From: Halopseudomonas laoshanensis
GTDB lineage: Bacteria > Pseudomonadota > Gammaproteobacteria > Pseudomonadales > Pseudomonadaceae
Assembly: GCF_008365385.1 (NCBI RefSeq)
Contig: NZ_QOVF01000004.1
Span: 1-64,000, forward strand
DNA length: 64,000 nucleotides
Reading direction: 5' to 3'
In this document: positions 31,494-37,618 of the stretch, one piece after another
Layout of the letters: each line of letters opens with the position of its first letter
Numbering within the stretch: position 1 is the stretch's first letter
Notes under the pieces: model-generated
The model's input: only the letters and a program-made list of their open reading frames with translations
Told to the model about the DNA's origin: nothing
The model's database searches: none
Translations under genes and position numbers: made by a program

Positions 31494-32194
31494 AGTGCGT
31501 GGGCGGCAATGCACAGGATCAGCTGGTCGTATTTCCAACGTAGCCAGCCGAGCAGGGCACCGAGCAAGGCAATCACCAGCACGCCGCCGGGGCTGTAGAA
31601 ACTGTGCATCAACGCAAAGATCAGCGTGGTTACCGGCAATGCCAGCCAGATGCCCGGGCGGGTGCGTTGCAGTGACTTGAATAACCAGCCGCGGAAAACC
31701 ACTTCTTCGGCGAACGGCACCCAGAGGATGGCGATCAGCAGCCCGGCTATCAGGCGCGGCCAGGGTAGATCGAGCAGCGGAGTAATGGCCTGTGGCCGAT
31801 TGGGCGCATCGGGCTCCAGTGCAATGGGTAGGCGGATATCCAGCCAGCTGGCGAGCGGATCTGCGCCCAGCACCATGGCAACAGCAAACAGGCAGGCTAG
31901 CAGCAAACCGGGCAGCGAGAGGCCGGCGCCCCATAGCCAGGGCATCGGCTGACGCGGTGAAAGTAACCAGGCAATAATCAGACTACCCAGAATGACTAAC
32001 CCGGCAAACAGCGCATCCAGCAGCAGAAATTGCGTATCGATATGCCAACGGATCCCGCTCAATTGCATCAACAGGGCTGCGGCATGATGGCTGAACAGGG
32101 CGAGCAGGGCATAGGCGATGGCCAGCCGTGCCAGGATCAGAGCATCGTCCAGGGCATGCCTGCTATCCGCGGGTAGCGCCAGGTGGTGCTTCAC
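31454..32194 (-). CDS. CPBP-family intramembrane metalloprotease
   Basis: A 246-residue, roughly eight-helix membrane protein of the CPBP (CAAX protease/bacteriocin-processing) family. The metal motifs are PFAEEVVFRGWLF (EExxxR) and LIFALMHSF (FxxxH), with a final HALYNG segment. Substrate unknown; members process prenylated proteins or handle bacteriocin self-immunity in other bacteria. Its last 40 bases overlap antisense with the end of ptxE. Confidence 0.83.
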   Translation of the reverse strand: MKHHLALPADSRHALDDALILARLAIAYALLALFSHHAAALLMQLSGIRWHIDTQFLLLDALFAGLVILGSLIIAWLLSPRQPMPWLWGAGLSLPGLLLACLFAVAMVLGADPLASWLDIRLPIALEPDAPNRPQAITPLLDLPWPRLIAGLLIAILWVPFAEEVVFRGWLFKSLQRTRPGIWLALPVTTLIFALMHSFYSPGGVLVIALLGALLGWLRWKYDQLILCIAAHALYNGLTLLFVALE

Positions 32195-32230
32195 GCGGCA
32201 AATCGACCAGGTGATTGCAGGTCACTACTG

Positions 32231-33310
32231 TTACAGCGGCTTGATGCGTTCATGCAATTTTCCTGAGTCAGCCAAGTCGAGAAATTCATCACCGAGCCGC
32301 TGGCTCTCGGCCATGGCGGTGCGCCAGTAACGCTGGCGACCAGCGTCATCGCCAAGAAAGCGATTAAAGTCGCGCCGATCCGGCAACTTGCCGAAGGGTA
32401 ACTTGGCGAGATAGTCGCGCGAGGGCGACATCAACAATACGTTCTTCAGTTGCTCTAGATTACCCCGACGCCAGGGCAGGCTCTTGTCGAACCAGCCAGG
32501 AACAACGCGATCAAGAAAGTGCGGGTAGAGCACCACGCCGGGGGCCTGGTAAGGCAGGTCGAGGTGATAGTCGAGCAAGCCGCCATCCCGATAGACGCCA
32601 AGGCGAGCACCGGGAATATCGCGTACGCCCTGCATCACCCAGGGGATGGCGCCGGAGGCCATCAACGCAGAGCGCAGGTTGCCGGTGTTTAAACTGATGT
32701 GCTCACTGGGAAAGTCGACCAGGTCAGCCAGCGGCGGACGCTGCCGCGGATCATGCAGGATTACCCGTTCGAAATAGCGCTTCAGATGTCGGCGGCCCAG
32801 CAGGTTGGCGCCAATCACCCCGCCCAGCCCTAGGCCCAGTCGCGAGCGCGTATCGTGTTGCAGCAGGCCCAGGCTTTTCACCACCATGACGTTCAGATGG
32901 TACTGGGGGTTGTGCAGAATGCTGTGCGCATCCTCACCCAGCAGCTCGTCCAGCATCACTCCGCAGCGCTGGCTGATCTGCGCCATACTGATGCCCTTGG
33001 GAAACTGCATGCTCGTGTACAGCTCGCCGAGCCGACGAAGACCCTCTACCGGATCGGGCAAGCAAGCGCTGGCAAACCGCCAACTGCCAATCGATGCGCC
33101 AATCAGGCTGCGCGGTTGTGGCGTGCGCGGCAGCCAATCACCGAACAGGGCCAGATCCAGACCCTGAATGCCCAGCGCCTTGGGGCCGCCGGCAGCACCG
33201 GGGATCATGTGAACGTCAGCCGGCTGCAGCCCTTGCTCACGGATATGCACCAGTGCCTGATGGCCGGCGCGTAGTTCCAGTGCCGGGGATGAAATATGTA
33301 TTGCGGTCAT
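32231..33310 (-). CDS. Patatin-like phospholipase family protein
   Basis: A 359-residue patatin-fold protein. The oxyanion and nucleophile motifs are GAAGGPKALGIQGLD and SLIGASIGSWRFA (GxSxG-type), with the partner Asp in YRDGGLLDYHLDLPY (DG[G/A]). It would hydrolyse acyl lipids. Start 33310 follows AAGGAT; the longer frame to 33403 lacks a site. It is divergent from the PepSY operon. Confidence 0.83.
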   Translation of the reverse strand: MTAIHISSPALELRAGHQALVHIREQGLQPADVHMIPGAAGGPKALGIQGLDLALFGDWLPRTPQPRSLIGASIGSWRFASACLPDPVEGLRRLGELYTSMQFPKGISMAQISQRCGVMLDELLGEDAHSILHNPQYHLNVMVVKSLGLLQHDTRSRLGLGLGGVIGANLLGRRHLKRYFERVILHDPRQRPPLADLVDFPSEHISLNTGNLRSALMASGAIPWVMQGVRDIPGARLGVYRDGGLLDYHLDLPYQAPGVVLYPHFLDRVVPGWFDKSLPWRRGNLEQLKNVLLMSPSRDYLAKLPFGKLPDRRDFNRFLGDDAGRQRYWRTAMAESQRLGDEFLDLADSGKLHERIKPL

Positions 33311-33352
33311 GCGGTATCCTTGTTGCAGCCTGTTTTTCCAGGACCGACCGTT

Positions 33353-33369
33353 TTTAAGTTTGGCTTCAG
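33353..33369 (+). promoter_or_regulatory. Putative response-regulator box (PmrA/BqsR-like direct repeat) upstream of the PepSY operon
   Basis: TTTAAG, five bases, then CTTCAG at 33353-33369 resembles the YTTAAK-N5-YTTAAK direct repeat bound by PmrA/ColR/BqsR-type OmpR-family regulators. It lies about 50 bp before the first PepSY gene, whose operon encodes such a regulator. One hexamer mismatch on each side leaves room for chance. Confidence 0.45.
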
Positions 33370-33417
33370 CTTGGGGTACTAGTATGCAAGCGTACTCAAA
33401 CAACGGAGATCTATAGT

Positions 33418-33723
33418 ATGAAAAATCTTATCGCAATGTCCTGTGCTGCTGTTCTGACTCTTGGTAGTGCTGCTGTGTTGGCCGATGATGTACGCATTGA
33501 TGAAGCTCAAAAGCTGGTCACTGACGGTACCATTCAGTCTTTTGAAAAGTTGAACGAAAAAGCCCTGGCCACTCAGGCCGGCACCATTACTGATACCGAG
33601 CTGGAGCAGGAATACGGCCGTTATATCTATAAAGTCGAGATCCGCGATGCCCAAGGTGCAGAGTGGGATATTGATATGGATGCTACCAATGCTGAAATTC
33701 TCAAGAATGAAAAAGACAGCTAA
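33418..33723 (+). CDS. Periplasmic PepSY-domain protein 1
   Basis: 101 residues: signal peptide to about residue 22 (LGSAAVLA), then a single PepSY domain (IDEAQKLVTDGTIQSFEKL ... YGRYIYKVEIRDAQGAEWDIDMDATNAEIL). Small PepSY proteins are commonly periplasmic partners of two-component systems or peptidase inhibitors. It heads an operon with a second PepSY protein, response regulator and kinase, which suggests a sensory accessory role. A terminator-like hairpin lies just after its stop. Confidence 0.82.
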   Translation: MKNLIAMSCAAVLTLGSAAVLADDVRIDEAQKLVTDGTIQSFEKLNEKALATQAGTITDTELEQEYGRYIYKVEIRDAQGAEWDIDMDATNAEILKNEKDS

Positions 33724-34060
33724 TCGTTCCTGCAGTAACCAGAAAGCCGCCTTGCGCGGCTTTTTCTGTTGGGCGCTGTTAAGTCTGTCGCTCGGCTGGG
33801 CCACAGTCAGCTACGCGGGCCGGGATATCGATCAGGATGAAGCCTTGTATCTGGTCGAGCAGGGAGTGGTTAAACCTCTGCAGGAATTTCTCGACGATGC
33901 GCTCGAACGCTTCCCCGGACGCTTTCTGGAAGCGGAGCTGGAGTGGGACGACGGGCGCTATGTCTATGAGTTGGAAATCGTCACCAAGGCGCACCGGGTT
34001 TTGGAGCTGGAATACGATGCGGTGACTGGCAAGCTTTTGGATGTTGATGAGGAAGATTGA
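33707..34060 (+). CDS. Periplasmic PepSY-domain protein 2
   Basis: A paralogue of the preceding gene, about 117 residues from ATG 33707 (in-frame ATGs also lie at 33647 and 33689). A signal-like hydrophobic stretch ([20 protein letters not shown]) precedes a PepSY domain ([21 protein letters not shown] ... [28 protein letters not shown]). The start overlaps the end of PepSY 1, and its N-terminal codons contain an intrinsic-terminator-like hairpin. A TTG start at 33752 would shorten it to the signal peptide. The start is therefore uncertain. Confidence 0.7.
33743..33766 (+). terminator. Terminator-like hairpin inside the start of PepSY protein 2
   Basis: AAAGCCGC (33743-33750) pairs with GCGGCTTT (33756-33763) around CTTGC, followed by a T-run (TTTTT in GGCTTTTTC, then CTG). 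It lies 20 bp after the PepSY 1 stop codon and within the PepSY 2 frame, so it should reduce, not abolish, read-through into the regulator and kinase genes. Confidence 0.75.
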
Positions 34061-34731
34061 TGCGGTTGTTACTGGTGGAGGACACCGTCGAGTTGGCGGA
34101 CAGCTTGTGTGCTGTGCTCAAGGACGGTGGTTATGCGGTTGACTGGCGTGCCGACGGGCGCGATGCGCTGATTCTGGGTGAGCAGGAGCCTTACGATCTG
34201 TGCATTCTGGATCTGGGTTTGCCGGGGATGGATGGGCTCGAGATTCTGACGCGCTGGCGCGCCGCCGGAGTCGCCTTGCCGGTGTTGATACTGACCGCCC
34301 GCAGCAATTGGAGTGAGCGAGTCGAGGGCTTGCGCGCTGGCGCGGATGATTATCTGGTCAAACCCTTCCACTCCGAGGAGCTGCTGCTGCGGGTGCAGGC
34401 ATTGCTGCGGCGCAGCCACGGGCGTCAACCGCAAGCGTTATTGCAGGCGGGCGGTCTGGCGCTGGATGAAAGCAAGCAGCAGGTGTCTGGAGCAGGTCTG
34501 GACGCTGTGCAACTGTCTGCTACCGAATTCAAGCTGCTGCGCTATTTCATGCTGCACACTGGCCAGTTATTGTCGAAAACGCGGTTGGCCGAGCATCTGT
34601 ATGAATATGAAAGCGAACGCGATTCCAACGTGATCGAAGTACAGATCAATCACCTGCGTCAAAAGGTCGGTCGCGAGAGTATCCAGACCCGGCGTGGGCA
34701 AGGTTACATATTTAGCGGGCGCGCGCAGTGA
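34060..34731 (+). CDS. OmpR-family response regulator
   Basis: 223 residues. A receiver domain occupies about 1-115 with phospho-acceptor Asp51 ([13 protein letters not shown]) and the acidic pair at Glu7-Asp8, and Lys in [10 protein letters not shown] winged-helix DNA-binding domain (about 125-222) ends RRGQGYIF. It overlaps the PepSY 2 stop by one base and the kinase start by four (GTGA), so the three are coupled. By similarity it is of the QseB/PmrA/BqsR group; which stimulus it answers is not visible. Confidence 0.9.
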
Positions 34732-36044
34732 AAAGTATTGGCCGGCAACTGGGCCTGGGGTTGATTGCGATCATGCTGGCCACCGTCGTGCTCGTGGGGC
34801 AGGGTAGTGTCTGGCTGTTCGATCAGGCCCTGCGCGGCTACCTGACTACGGTGCTGCAGCGTGAGACCGATAGCCTGCTGACCGCCCTGCGTTCCGGTCC
34901 CGACGGGTTGTATCTGGACGTGCAGCGGATTGATCCGGATTATCAGCGGCTGTATTCAGGGCGCTATTTTGTCATCGACGCCGGCGAGCGCTGGCGCTCG
35001 CGCTCACTCTGGGACACCCGTCTGCCGCTGGACGCCGAAGGCCTGCACAACACCCTGGTAGCTGGCCCGGATGATCAGCAATTGCTGGTTTGGTCCGGGC
35101 GCTACGAGCTGCCGGAAGAGTCGGTGCGGATCAGTGTTGCCATCGATTACCTGCCATTGCTCAAAGCCTTTGATCGGACCCGCTGGCTTATCTGGGGGCT
35201 GGGCGGGGTAGCCATTCTGATCAGCCTGCTGGTCCAGCAACTGCTGCTCAGGCGCGCTCTGCTGCCGCTGCGTCGCGCGCGAGGGGAGTTAGCCGAGTGG
35301 CATGTTGGCAAGCGCTTGCAGCTCAGCGAAGAAGTGCCGGAGGAACTGCAGCCTTTGGTCGCCGAGATCAATCACTTGGGGCGCCAGGTGGAGCAGATCA
35401 TCAAACGATCGCGTAGTGGCCAGGCTGACCTTGGCCATGCGCTGAAAACGCCGTTGGCGGTATTGGAAACACTAGTAAGCGAATGCTCCGGACGCCTGCC
35501 AGAGGACAAGGTGCAAGCGCTGAAAACTCAATTGGTGTCCATGCGCGGGCAGATGGAGCGCGCCTTGCAACGCGCCAGACTGGCGCCGGAAAGCCAGGCC
35601 GGGCGACGTTTTAACGCCGCTGAGGATCTACCCTGGCTGCTGGAGTCACTGGAGCGCATTCACGGCGACAAGGTGCGCATGCAAACCTTGATTCATCCTC
35701 AGGCGGCTGCGGACTGGCCGTTTGAACGTGAAGATATGCTTGAGCTGTTGGGCAACTTGCTGGATAACGCCTGCAAGTGGGCAGCGACAACAGTGCAATT
35801 CGAATGCGCGCTGAACCACCAAGAGCTGATCTTGCATGTCCGTGATGACGGTCCCGGCGTGCCGGAAAAGGACCACGTACGCATCCTGCGTCGGGGGCAG
35901 CGGCTGGACCAAACCGTCAACGGCCAAGGCCTGGGTTTGGCCATTGTCGGTGATCTGGTCGAGGTCTACCGCGGGCAGGTAACCTTGGCAGAGGCCGCCC
36001 TGGGCGGCCTCGAAGTAACCGTGGTGCTGCCCTGGCAGAACTGA
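34728..36044 (+). CDS. Membrane sensor histidine kinase
   Basis: 438 residues starting from GTG. Helix 1 (about 8-30) and helix 2 (about 150-170) flank a roughly 115-residue periplasmic loop. The phospho-acceptor is His237 in [16 protein letters not shown]; the ATPase shows N box [10 protein letters not shown] and G boxes DDGPGVP and GQGLGLAIV. The periplasmic side could meet the two PepSY proteins encoded upstream. It converges with the EAL gene 16 bp away. Confidence 0.9.
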
Positions 36045-36060
36045 TCCGTGGCCAGGTTGA

Positions 36061-37224
36061 TCAGATCAACGCGGTATCGATATCCACCAGCAGCAGATGT
36101 CGGCTGTTGTCGATGAACAGCCCTGAGGTGATGCAGTACTGGTTGGTTGTGGCGTCCCGATAGCGGTTGGACAGAATCACCCTGCTGTCTTGCCCGGCTT
36201 CGGCGAGGATCTGATAGAAGTAGGGGCGCCAGGACCAATTGTGATCCAGATAGCGGGGGTCAGCCTTCCAGCTATTGTTGGTCCATTCATAGTTTGGCGA
36301 AATCTGCGTGCCATGGGCGTCGCAGAGAAAGCAGCGCAGTAGCCAGGGGTAGGATTTGGGCGAGGGCAGGTCCGTCGGTTTGCCGCCCTTGGCCAGCCAT
36401 TTTCTTAAATCGCCGAAGAGTACCGAGAGCGAGTTGCGCAGCTCCATCAGTTTCGCGCGCTCTGCCAGCTTGCCTGCCGCGTAGTCATCACGCATGCGTG
36501 AGAACTCAGCTTTTACCGCATCCGGCGGCAGGAAGTTCTCTGCCGGGCGGGCAAACAGGTAGCCCTGCACATAGCGCGCGCCACATTCCAGAGCAAAGTG
36601 CAGCTCCTGTTCGGTTTCCACTCCTTCAGCAATGATCCAGCAGCCACTCTTTTCCGCCATCAAAGCCAGCGCCTTGACGAAATCACCGCTATTGCCGTTG
36701 CCGCTGGCCGCCTGACGAAATAGCTGTATATCCAGTTTGAGAATATCCGGCTCCAGTGCCAACACGCGATCCAGCATGGAATAACCGGCACCAAAGTCGT
36801 CTATCGCAATGCGGATGCCGGCTTCCCGATAGCGGCGTACGGCTTCCTTGAGTTCCTGCAGGTCTCCTTGCAGCTCAGTAATTTCGAATACCACCTGCTC
36901 CGGCGGCAGGCCTATTTCTTCAAGAAGTTGCAAGCTGGGCAGGGGCTTGCCCGGCTCCAGTCGGCTGACCCATAGCGGCGAGATATTGATGCTGATGAAG
37001 CCATCGGGGTTGTCCCTGAAGGCTTCCAGAGCCATGCGCCGAATCGTTCTGTCCAGGTCCAGCAGATCGTCAGGGTCGACACCAGGGTCGGTGAACAGCG
37101 GGCCAGCGCTGACAATCTGGCCCTGTTCGTCGCGCAGTCTGGCAAGGGCTTCGTAGCCAGCAATGCGACCGGTGGCGGTATCGATCAGCGGTTGAAAAAA
37201 CGGCAGTGGTTGACCATTGAACAC
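36061..37224 (-). CDS. EAL-domain c-di-GMP phosphodiesterase with C-terminal sensory-like domain
   Basis: About 387 residues. The EAL domain covers roughly 1-245 (GYEALARL, FEITELQGD, IDDFGAGYS, KLDIQLFR, IAEGVET), so hydrolysis of c-di-GMP is expected. The C-terminal region (about 270-385, CFLCDAHGTQISPN ... LSNRYRDATTN) resembles a soluble Cache-like fold and would sense a cytoplasmic ligand. The GTG at 37224, preceded by TTGGAG, is taken as start; a frame open to ATG 37392 adds a non-family-like extension. Confidence 0.82.
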   Translation of the reverse strand: MFNGQPLPFFQPLIDTATGRIAGYEALARLRDEQGQIVSAGPLFTDPGVDPDDLLDLDRTIRRMALEAFRDNPDGFISINISPLWVSRLEPGKPLPSLQLLEEIGLPPEQVVFEITELQGDLQELKEAVRRYREAGIRIAIDDFGAGYSMLDRVLALEPDILKLDIQLFRQAASGNGNSGDFVKALALMAEKSGCWIIAEGVETEQELHFALECGARYVQGYLFARPAENFLPPDAVKAEFSRMRDDYAAGKLAERAKLMELRNSLSVLFGDLRKWLAKGGKPTDLPSPKSYPWLLRCFLCDAHGTQISPNYEWTNNSWKADPRYLDHNWSWRPYFYQILAEAGQDSRVILSNRYRDATTNQYCITSGLFIDNSRHLLLVDIDTALI

Positions 37225-37618
37225 AACATACTCCAAGTGAGAGGGACAGCGGCTGGGCGGTGCATGCAAGATTATAGCCAAGGGAAATGAAAGCGGCGGC
37301 TTTACCGGGATTAGACGGCCGCCTGACTTTGGTGGAAGTCTTTCCTGTTTGTTATTGGTGCGTGGAAGACCGTCTTGGTATGACGTTTGCACTCTTGTGG
37401 TGAGTTATTGCAGATGGCGCGCACGATTATGGTGCCAATCCATGTGATCAGTAACCTACACCCTTAATAAATGTCTGAAAAACATAGAAAAAATTCACCA
37501 GACAGAATTTATGCTTAATTCCTATTGGTGTCGCGCTGGTGTGATACGCACCATTTAGACGCTGGAGCAGGGATTTATGCATTTATCTGGTGCGTTTTTC
37601 ATATAAAAGAGGCTCGCT

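Follow-up and report, generated by a model that had tools for sequence, protein, structure and literature searches.

Operon architecture and the question it raises

Why should a signal that resembles an intrinsic terminator lie within the first codons of a gene, and what would it do there? The question is raised by a four-gene operon of Halopseudomonas laoshanensis, located in a 64,000-nt stretch of contig NZ_QOVF01000004.1 (hereafter the window, meaning that whole stretch of DNA). Two genes for small exported PepSY proteins precede those of an OmpR-type response regulator and a sensor histidine kinase, and all four overlap stepwise, from PepSY1 through PepSY2 and the regulator to the kinase. 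The features that concern us are as follows.

33354..33369, + strand: BqsR-like box TTAAG-N6-TTCAG (TTAAGTTTGGCTTCAG) upstream of PepSY1
33418..33723, + strand: PepSY1, small exported PepSY protein in the bqsP position (ORF; Pfam PF03413, E=2e-10)
33707..34060, + strand: PepSY2, small exported PepSY protein in the bqsQ position, with the hairpin in its first codons (ORF; PF03413, E=1.1e-8)
33743..33763, + strand: terminator-like stem-loop AAAGCCGC / CTTGC / GCGGCTTT (sequence, fold, conservation and paired changes)
33761..33765, + strand: T-tract TTTTTCTGTT after the GC-rich part of the stem (sequence reading)
34060..34731, + strand: OmpR-type response regulator in the bqsR position (PF00072 and PF00486)
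34728..36044, + strand: sensor histidine kinase in the bqsS position (PF02518)

The PepSY1 frame ends with TAA at 33721-33723, while PepSY2 runs from an ATG at 33707 to a stop at 34058-34060, so that the two overlap by 17 nt; by our own reading, each protein appears to carry a signal peptide. Open reading frames and Pfam domains give the order PepSY, PepSY, response regulator, histidine kinase, which is that of bqsPQRS/carRS of Pseudomonas aeruginosa (PA2659-PA2656; PMC12666569, PMC12802237). Like that system, the operon combines two PepSY-type accessory genes, a regulator and a kinase with a BqsR-type box upstream, the comparison covering the published gene order and box consensus. Of the genomes compared, 33 of 37 in the genus and 278 of 298 sampled from the family contain a PepSY2 match; Halopseudomonas pelagia has a PepSY2 with 79% identity to that of the window.

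A terminator-like hairpin in the PepSY2 frame

The arms of the stem (33743-33750 and 33756-33763) enclose the loop CTTGC (33751-33755), and the T-tract comes directly after GCGGC of the stem. An earlier note on this DNA had placed a stem with a T-run inside the PepSY2 frame and past the PepSY1 stop, and its sequence, position and frame were all confirmed. Hairpin and T-tract together occupy signal-peptide codons, coding for K-A-A-L-R-G-F-F over 33743-33765. The stem starts 19 nt past the PepSY1 stop, a common place for a terminator, and 36 nt past the PepSY2 ATG. This GC-rich stem-loop, with its 8-bp core stem and 5-nt loop, folds at -14.7 kcal/mol (33738-33772), a stability reached by 4 of 200 dinucleotide shuffles (3 of 200 for 33725-33775); within the 111-nt context of 33690-33800 the fold is unexceptional (25 of 200 shuffles, z -1.23). 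On a d'Aubenton-like scorer built for this analysis, with d>=0 as the threshold, the hairpin reached d=12.7. It was not listed by a simple terminator scanner, probably because that scanner extends the stem into the T-tract.

Ten matches with d>=0 occur in the window, four of them in genes and in sense orientation, and the PepSY2 hairpin is the highest of these four (the next scores 11.5). A crude gene caller gave the sense label to the other three and took the PepSY2 hairpin for antisense, having chosen a minus-strand ORF over PepSY1. Across the genome, the pattern AGCC-N4..16-GGCTTTTT has 52 matches, and in 31 of these the stem has six or more Watson-Crick pairs. Of the 31, 29 fall outside any supported same-strand ORF, and the remaining two are the PepSY2 site and a site (L144) that precedes the probable start codon of a small ORF. 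At L144 the terminator-like hairpin falls within a 98-aa ORF, 31 nt from its first base, and translation probably begins past it (MWQSLATAL..); the neighbourhood, as we read the sequence, is the interval between an hflC-like gene and the next genes. When the PepSY2 protein was held fixed, 36 of 1000 synonymous recodings of the window sequence folded as stably, 7 of 1000 were both as stable and as T-rich, and 11 of 400 matched its terminator score. As many as 437 of 1000 were as T-rich, so in the window the signal-peptide core's codons largely account for the T-tract.

Several other identities were considered and set aside. A terminator shared by convergent genes does not suit the arrangement, since the gene to the left, on the minus strand, points away from the operon and the end of the convergent EAL gene is far off, at 36061. 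A repeat or mobile palindrome would recur, yet AGCCGCC[CT]TGNGCGGCT is found once in the genome. The best match to a known RNA family (Leu_leader, E=0.66, 20.2 bits against a cut-off of 50) is at chance level. A promoter of its own for PepSY2 was also rejected, no match to the sigma-70 consensus being present in 33300-33720 or 32000-37500, which is a weak test.

Conservation within Halopseudomonas

The junction between PepSY1 and PepSY2 was compared in 34 loci, namely 29 of the main Halopseudomonas group, three basal ones (L032, L163, L164), L031 from another genus and L165, the upstream ORF of which looks spurious. A score of d>=0 was found at the junction in 14 of the 29 main-group loci, the other 15 falling below it, and in none of the three basal loci; four control stretches in the same operons gave 0/34 each, and 0/52 each in the loci of other genera. 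In the 14 positive loci the score was matched by 0-17 of 400 synonymous recodings.

Paired changes were followed by aligning 15 loci (14 of them distinct) without gaps. Of the stem cells, 98.6% are paired, compared with 30-54% for slid structures, and three of the ten stem pairs have changed on both sides. Covariation was assessed on five measures: none of 500 shuffles reached the paired percentage or the covariation score, and the less striking measures were reached by 14 of 500 (both-sided pairs) and 142 of 500 (pair types). The exchange of AAA/TTT for CCA/TGG replaces Lys by Pro and Phe by Trp while keeping the pairing across both arms; this Lys/Pro and Phe/Trp change comes down for the most part to a single difference separating two clades, in a tree whose backbone is not resolved. 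The third changed pair (G-C, G-U or A-U) varies at synonymous positions.

A separate clade in the tree of loci (L022, L028 and L030) has unrelated stems with TTTT tails, +15 to +41 past the PepSY1 stop (d 25.4, -9.4 and 2.2, respectively). The T-tract follows the stem directly in the window, its three nearest relatives, L014, L019 and L022, and it is richer than codon expectation in L015 (12 of 1000 recodings) and L023 (23 of 1000). Strong hairpins occur with no T-tract in L006, L007 and L025, with 2, 0 and 1 of 1000 recodings as stable, respectively. Judged by these sequence comparisons, the junction hairpin is a real, conserved and terminator-like element, and more than chance.

Junctions in other lineages

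A wider survey matched ten genomes of a family (f43) that we infer to be the Alcanivoracaceae, since one of the ten is a 100% match to L096 (Alcanivorax sp. 24). A junction hairpin is present at all ten loci, with a sequence unrelated to that of Halopseudomonas, and eight reach d>=0, a score matched by 0-24 of 400 recodings; their T-tracts are weak. Among 52 loci of other genera, d>=0 was found at the junction in two, L096 and L106 (Alcanivorax and Alloalcanivorax). One pass took in 47 loci of an 80-locus set. A further 23 loci from other genera and families, some repeating species of that earlier set, comprised 13 that yielded a junction and 10 that did not; with the exclusion of L200, whose upstream ORF is spurious, 12 were usable and none gave such an element.

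Folding at the junction is stronger than synonymous expectation in Halopseudomonas (28 loci, mean z -1.50), in the Alcanivoracaceae (10 loci, mean z -1.98) and, with no T-tracts, in other Pseudomonas (38 loci, mean z -1.28, 17 with p<0.1). Stutzerimonas (12 loci, mean z +1.01) and the basal group (3 loci, mean z +1.97) show the opposite, folding at the junction that falls short of synonymous expectation. Over the signal-peptide codons of PepSY1, folding is weak by the same standard in every one of the five groups (mean z +0.78 to +1.18). An earlier pass that used a different fold window covered 54 of the 69 non-Halopseudomonas loci (L044-L112), 52 of which had a PepSY1 ORF. Halopseudomonas gave a mean z of -1.68 against -0.08 for controls, whereas the 52 loci of other genera gave -0.76 against -0.71, and the folding signal outside Halopseudomonas is less secure because the latter values barely differ. 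The locus L003, which nearly duplicates that of the window, was excluded from both passes. Strong junction hairpins that lack a T-tract and are stabler than recodings were seen in several Pseudomonas (L045, L051, L066, L070, L076, L087, L091 and L093).

Translation across the hairpin

In 17 of the 18 hairpin loci a PepSY2 start lies upstream of the hairpin (ATG at -16 or -7 in 16, GTG in L005), and ribosomes therefore do translate it; the exception, L028, has no canonical PepSY2 start before the hairpin. The overlapping PepSY2 ATG is lost in L017, L018, L021 and L024-L028, where there is an ACG or no canonical codon. A start past the hairpin was considered, since a TTG (33752) lies in the loop, yet L008 has no ATG, GTG or TTG from the hairpin to +80; the upstream start is preferred on the sequences compared, though not proven.

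With usual footprint sizes, a ribosome initiating at 33707 would reach to about 33723-33727, and one stopped at the PepSY1 stop to about 33736-33738, so the stem at 33743 should be left free by both. Masking by a ribosome at either place thus does not fit these footprints; by the same measure, only a ribosome that had already translated 7-8 codons of PepSY2 and was following RNA polymerase closely could block the stem. The idea in the earlier note that ribosomes starting PepSY2 would cover the hairpin is not supported by this geometry, the stem beginning 36 nt past the ATG. No clear Shine-Dalgarno sequence is seen in the 14 nt before the PepSY2 ATG (tgaaattctcaaga), for which reason PepSY2 probably relies on re-initiation after PepSY1; such re-initiation would be too late to affect the first polymerase. 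Coupling, including by re-initiation, is frequent among overlapping genes (PMC6728339). Coupling may tune read-through, although this is not the simplest reading. Of the proposal that the hairpin sets the ratio of PepSY1 to the downstream regulator and kinase, one part has held, as a terminator-like element does stand between PepSY1 and PepSY2-regulator-kinase and its conservation fits; the coupling that was to govern it fits poorly.

Weighing the explanations

We put at about even the chance that the hairpin is a leaky, operon-internal intrinsic terminator placed after PepSY1 and within the PepSY2 signal-peptide codons. Transcripts would begin near the BqsR-like box, and many would stop near 33765 to yield a short PepSY1 mRNA, while a minority would read through into a full-length mRNA that carries PepSY2, the regulator and the kinase, whose overlapping genes are probably translated in a chain. 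The outcome would be more PepSY1 than sensor-module proteins and a damped positive autoregulation. We infer from the sequence the termination of RNA polymerase at the hairpin, the resulting ratio and its regulatory consequence alike.

If the hairpin protected or defined the 3' end of the PepSY1 mRNA after downstream cleavage (segmental stability), the PepSY1 message would outlive the rest of the transcript and the T-tract would be incidental. The junction hairpins without T-tracts in L006, L007, L025 and other Pseudomonas (38 loci) agree with this, as does the T-richness of the window, which is within codon expectation; but the tract comes directly after the stem in the window, its three nearest relatives, L014, L019 and L022, and in the earlier fold pass the signal of other genera was no stronger than that of controls (-0.76 against -0.71), and we consider the stability reading unlikely. 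The T-tract is left unexplained if the hairpin acts on translation, by lowering PepSY2 re-initiation or by slowing the ribosome on the signal peptide and so aiding export. Extra junction folding in three groups and the underfolded PepSY1 signal-peptide stretch in all five speak for such a role, but Stutzerimonas (+1.01) and the basal group (+1.97) have the same genes and no extra folding, which makes it quite improbable in our estimation.

A translation-coupled attenuator, in which ribosomes translating PepSY2 unfold the hairpin and thereby increase read-through, would suit both the ATG or GTG ahead of the hairpin in 17 of 18 loci and the frequent coupling of overlapping genes (PMC6728339). 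However, the stem stands beyond the ribosome footprints at 36 nt from the ATG and 19 nt from the stop, and no clear Shine-Dalgarno sequence precedes the PepSY2 ATG, so that we give this reading little credence. Lastly, the peptide KAALRGFF might itself produce an inverted repeat and a T-tract by coding coincidence, given that the terminator score of the window sequence is equalled by 11 of 400 recodings of this peptide, that its T-richness is codon-given and that the window contains four in-gene sense matches with d>=0. Against this stand the exchanges that retain pairing while replacing an amino acid on each arm (Lys to Pro, Phe to Trp), a third pair changed at synonymous positions, the unrelated stems at the same junction (L022, L028, L030 and the Alcanivoracaceae) and the control stretches at 0/34 each; coincidence appears very improbable.

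Known systems and implications

In the E. coli pyrE-rph attenuator, a terminator lies just past the upstream frame and before the next gene of the operon, as it would here, and the upstream ribosome comes near enough to block the stem. The window differs in that the stop is 19 nt from the stem and the downstream start is ahead of it.

In-operon stop signals (ioTTSs) of Methanococcus maripaludis leave upstream genes expressed above downstream ones (PMC10450193), as the hairpin would. Those archaeal signals are experimentally shown, whereas the present candidate, a bacterial hairpin in downstream signal-peptide codons, comes from sequence alone. The junction hairpin is a candidate variant form of operon-internal termination, within a gene start. 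No report of a terminator in a bqsPQRS-type operon appeared among the literature matches listed.

In dbfQRS of Vibrio cholerae, the gene of a small periplasmic PepSY protein also stands ahead of those of a regulator and a kinase, and DbfQ, by binding the kinase, shifts it towards phosphatase activity; dbfQRS has one PepSY gene and the window operon two (PMC12714742). No mention of a terminator, read-through or a stem-loop was found in that paper. It gives AlphaFold3 predictions in which PA2658, in the PepSY2 position, binds BqsS (ipTM 0.89) and PA2659, in the PepSY1 position, does not (0.11). If the hairpin terminates transcription, the split would fall between the kinase-binding and the non-binding PepSY protein as predicted by AlphaFold3 (PMC12714742), and separate roles of the two would become testable. 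One DNA stretch would then serve as both a signal peptide and a protein-ratio device in a two-component operon.

More generally, T-rich codons of a hydrophobic core with a GC hairpin just before them would make a leaky, signal-peptide-encoded terminator. We tentatively suggest, as a possibility that falls well short of probable, that such terminators arose more than once at the bqsP/bqsQ junction (in the unrelated stems of Halopseudomonas and in the Alcanivoracaceae), which would uncouple the expression of PepSY1 from that of PepSY2, the predicted kinase-binding partner, and of the two-component system. Terminators in gene starts can escape scans that set aside coding regions.

The upstream box and the operon surroundings

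The box at 33354-33369 is the sole match to TTAAG-N6-TTMAG in the window, where 0.09 are expected, and differs from TTAAG-N6-TTAAG, the BqsR box consensus (PMC4682146), by one mismatch among ten bases. A box with at most two mismatches lies upstream in 30/30 loci of the Halopseudomonas set and 52/52 other loci, compared with 75 of 1500 shuffles; with at most one mismatch it is found in 29 of the 30.

The Fe2+ ligand of the P. aeruginosa kinase BqsS is Glu48 (PMC12666569). In an ungapped reading, with PaBqsS itself outside the alignment, the window kinase appears to have Asp at the equivalent place (QRETDS), as do all 28 main-group Halopseudomonas kinases read over residues about 44-49. The Alcanivoracaceae kinases that could be read have a non-acidic residue there, and Glu is retained in most other genera. 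The two lineages with putative junction terminators are also those in which this position differs, and two are too few for linkage.

A 141-aa minus-strand ORF opposite PepSY1 (window 33379-33804) is probably spurious and misled a crude gene caller. Convergent to the kinase, on the minus strand at 36061-37392, lies a gene for an EAL-domain protein with a YkuI_C domain, which suggests a possible link of the operon to c-di-GMP.
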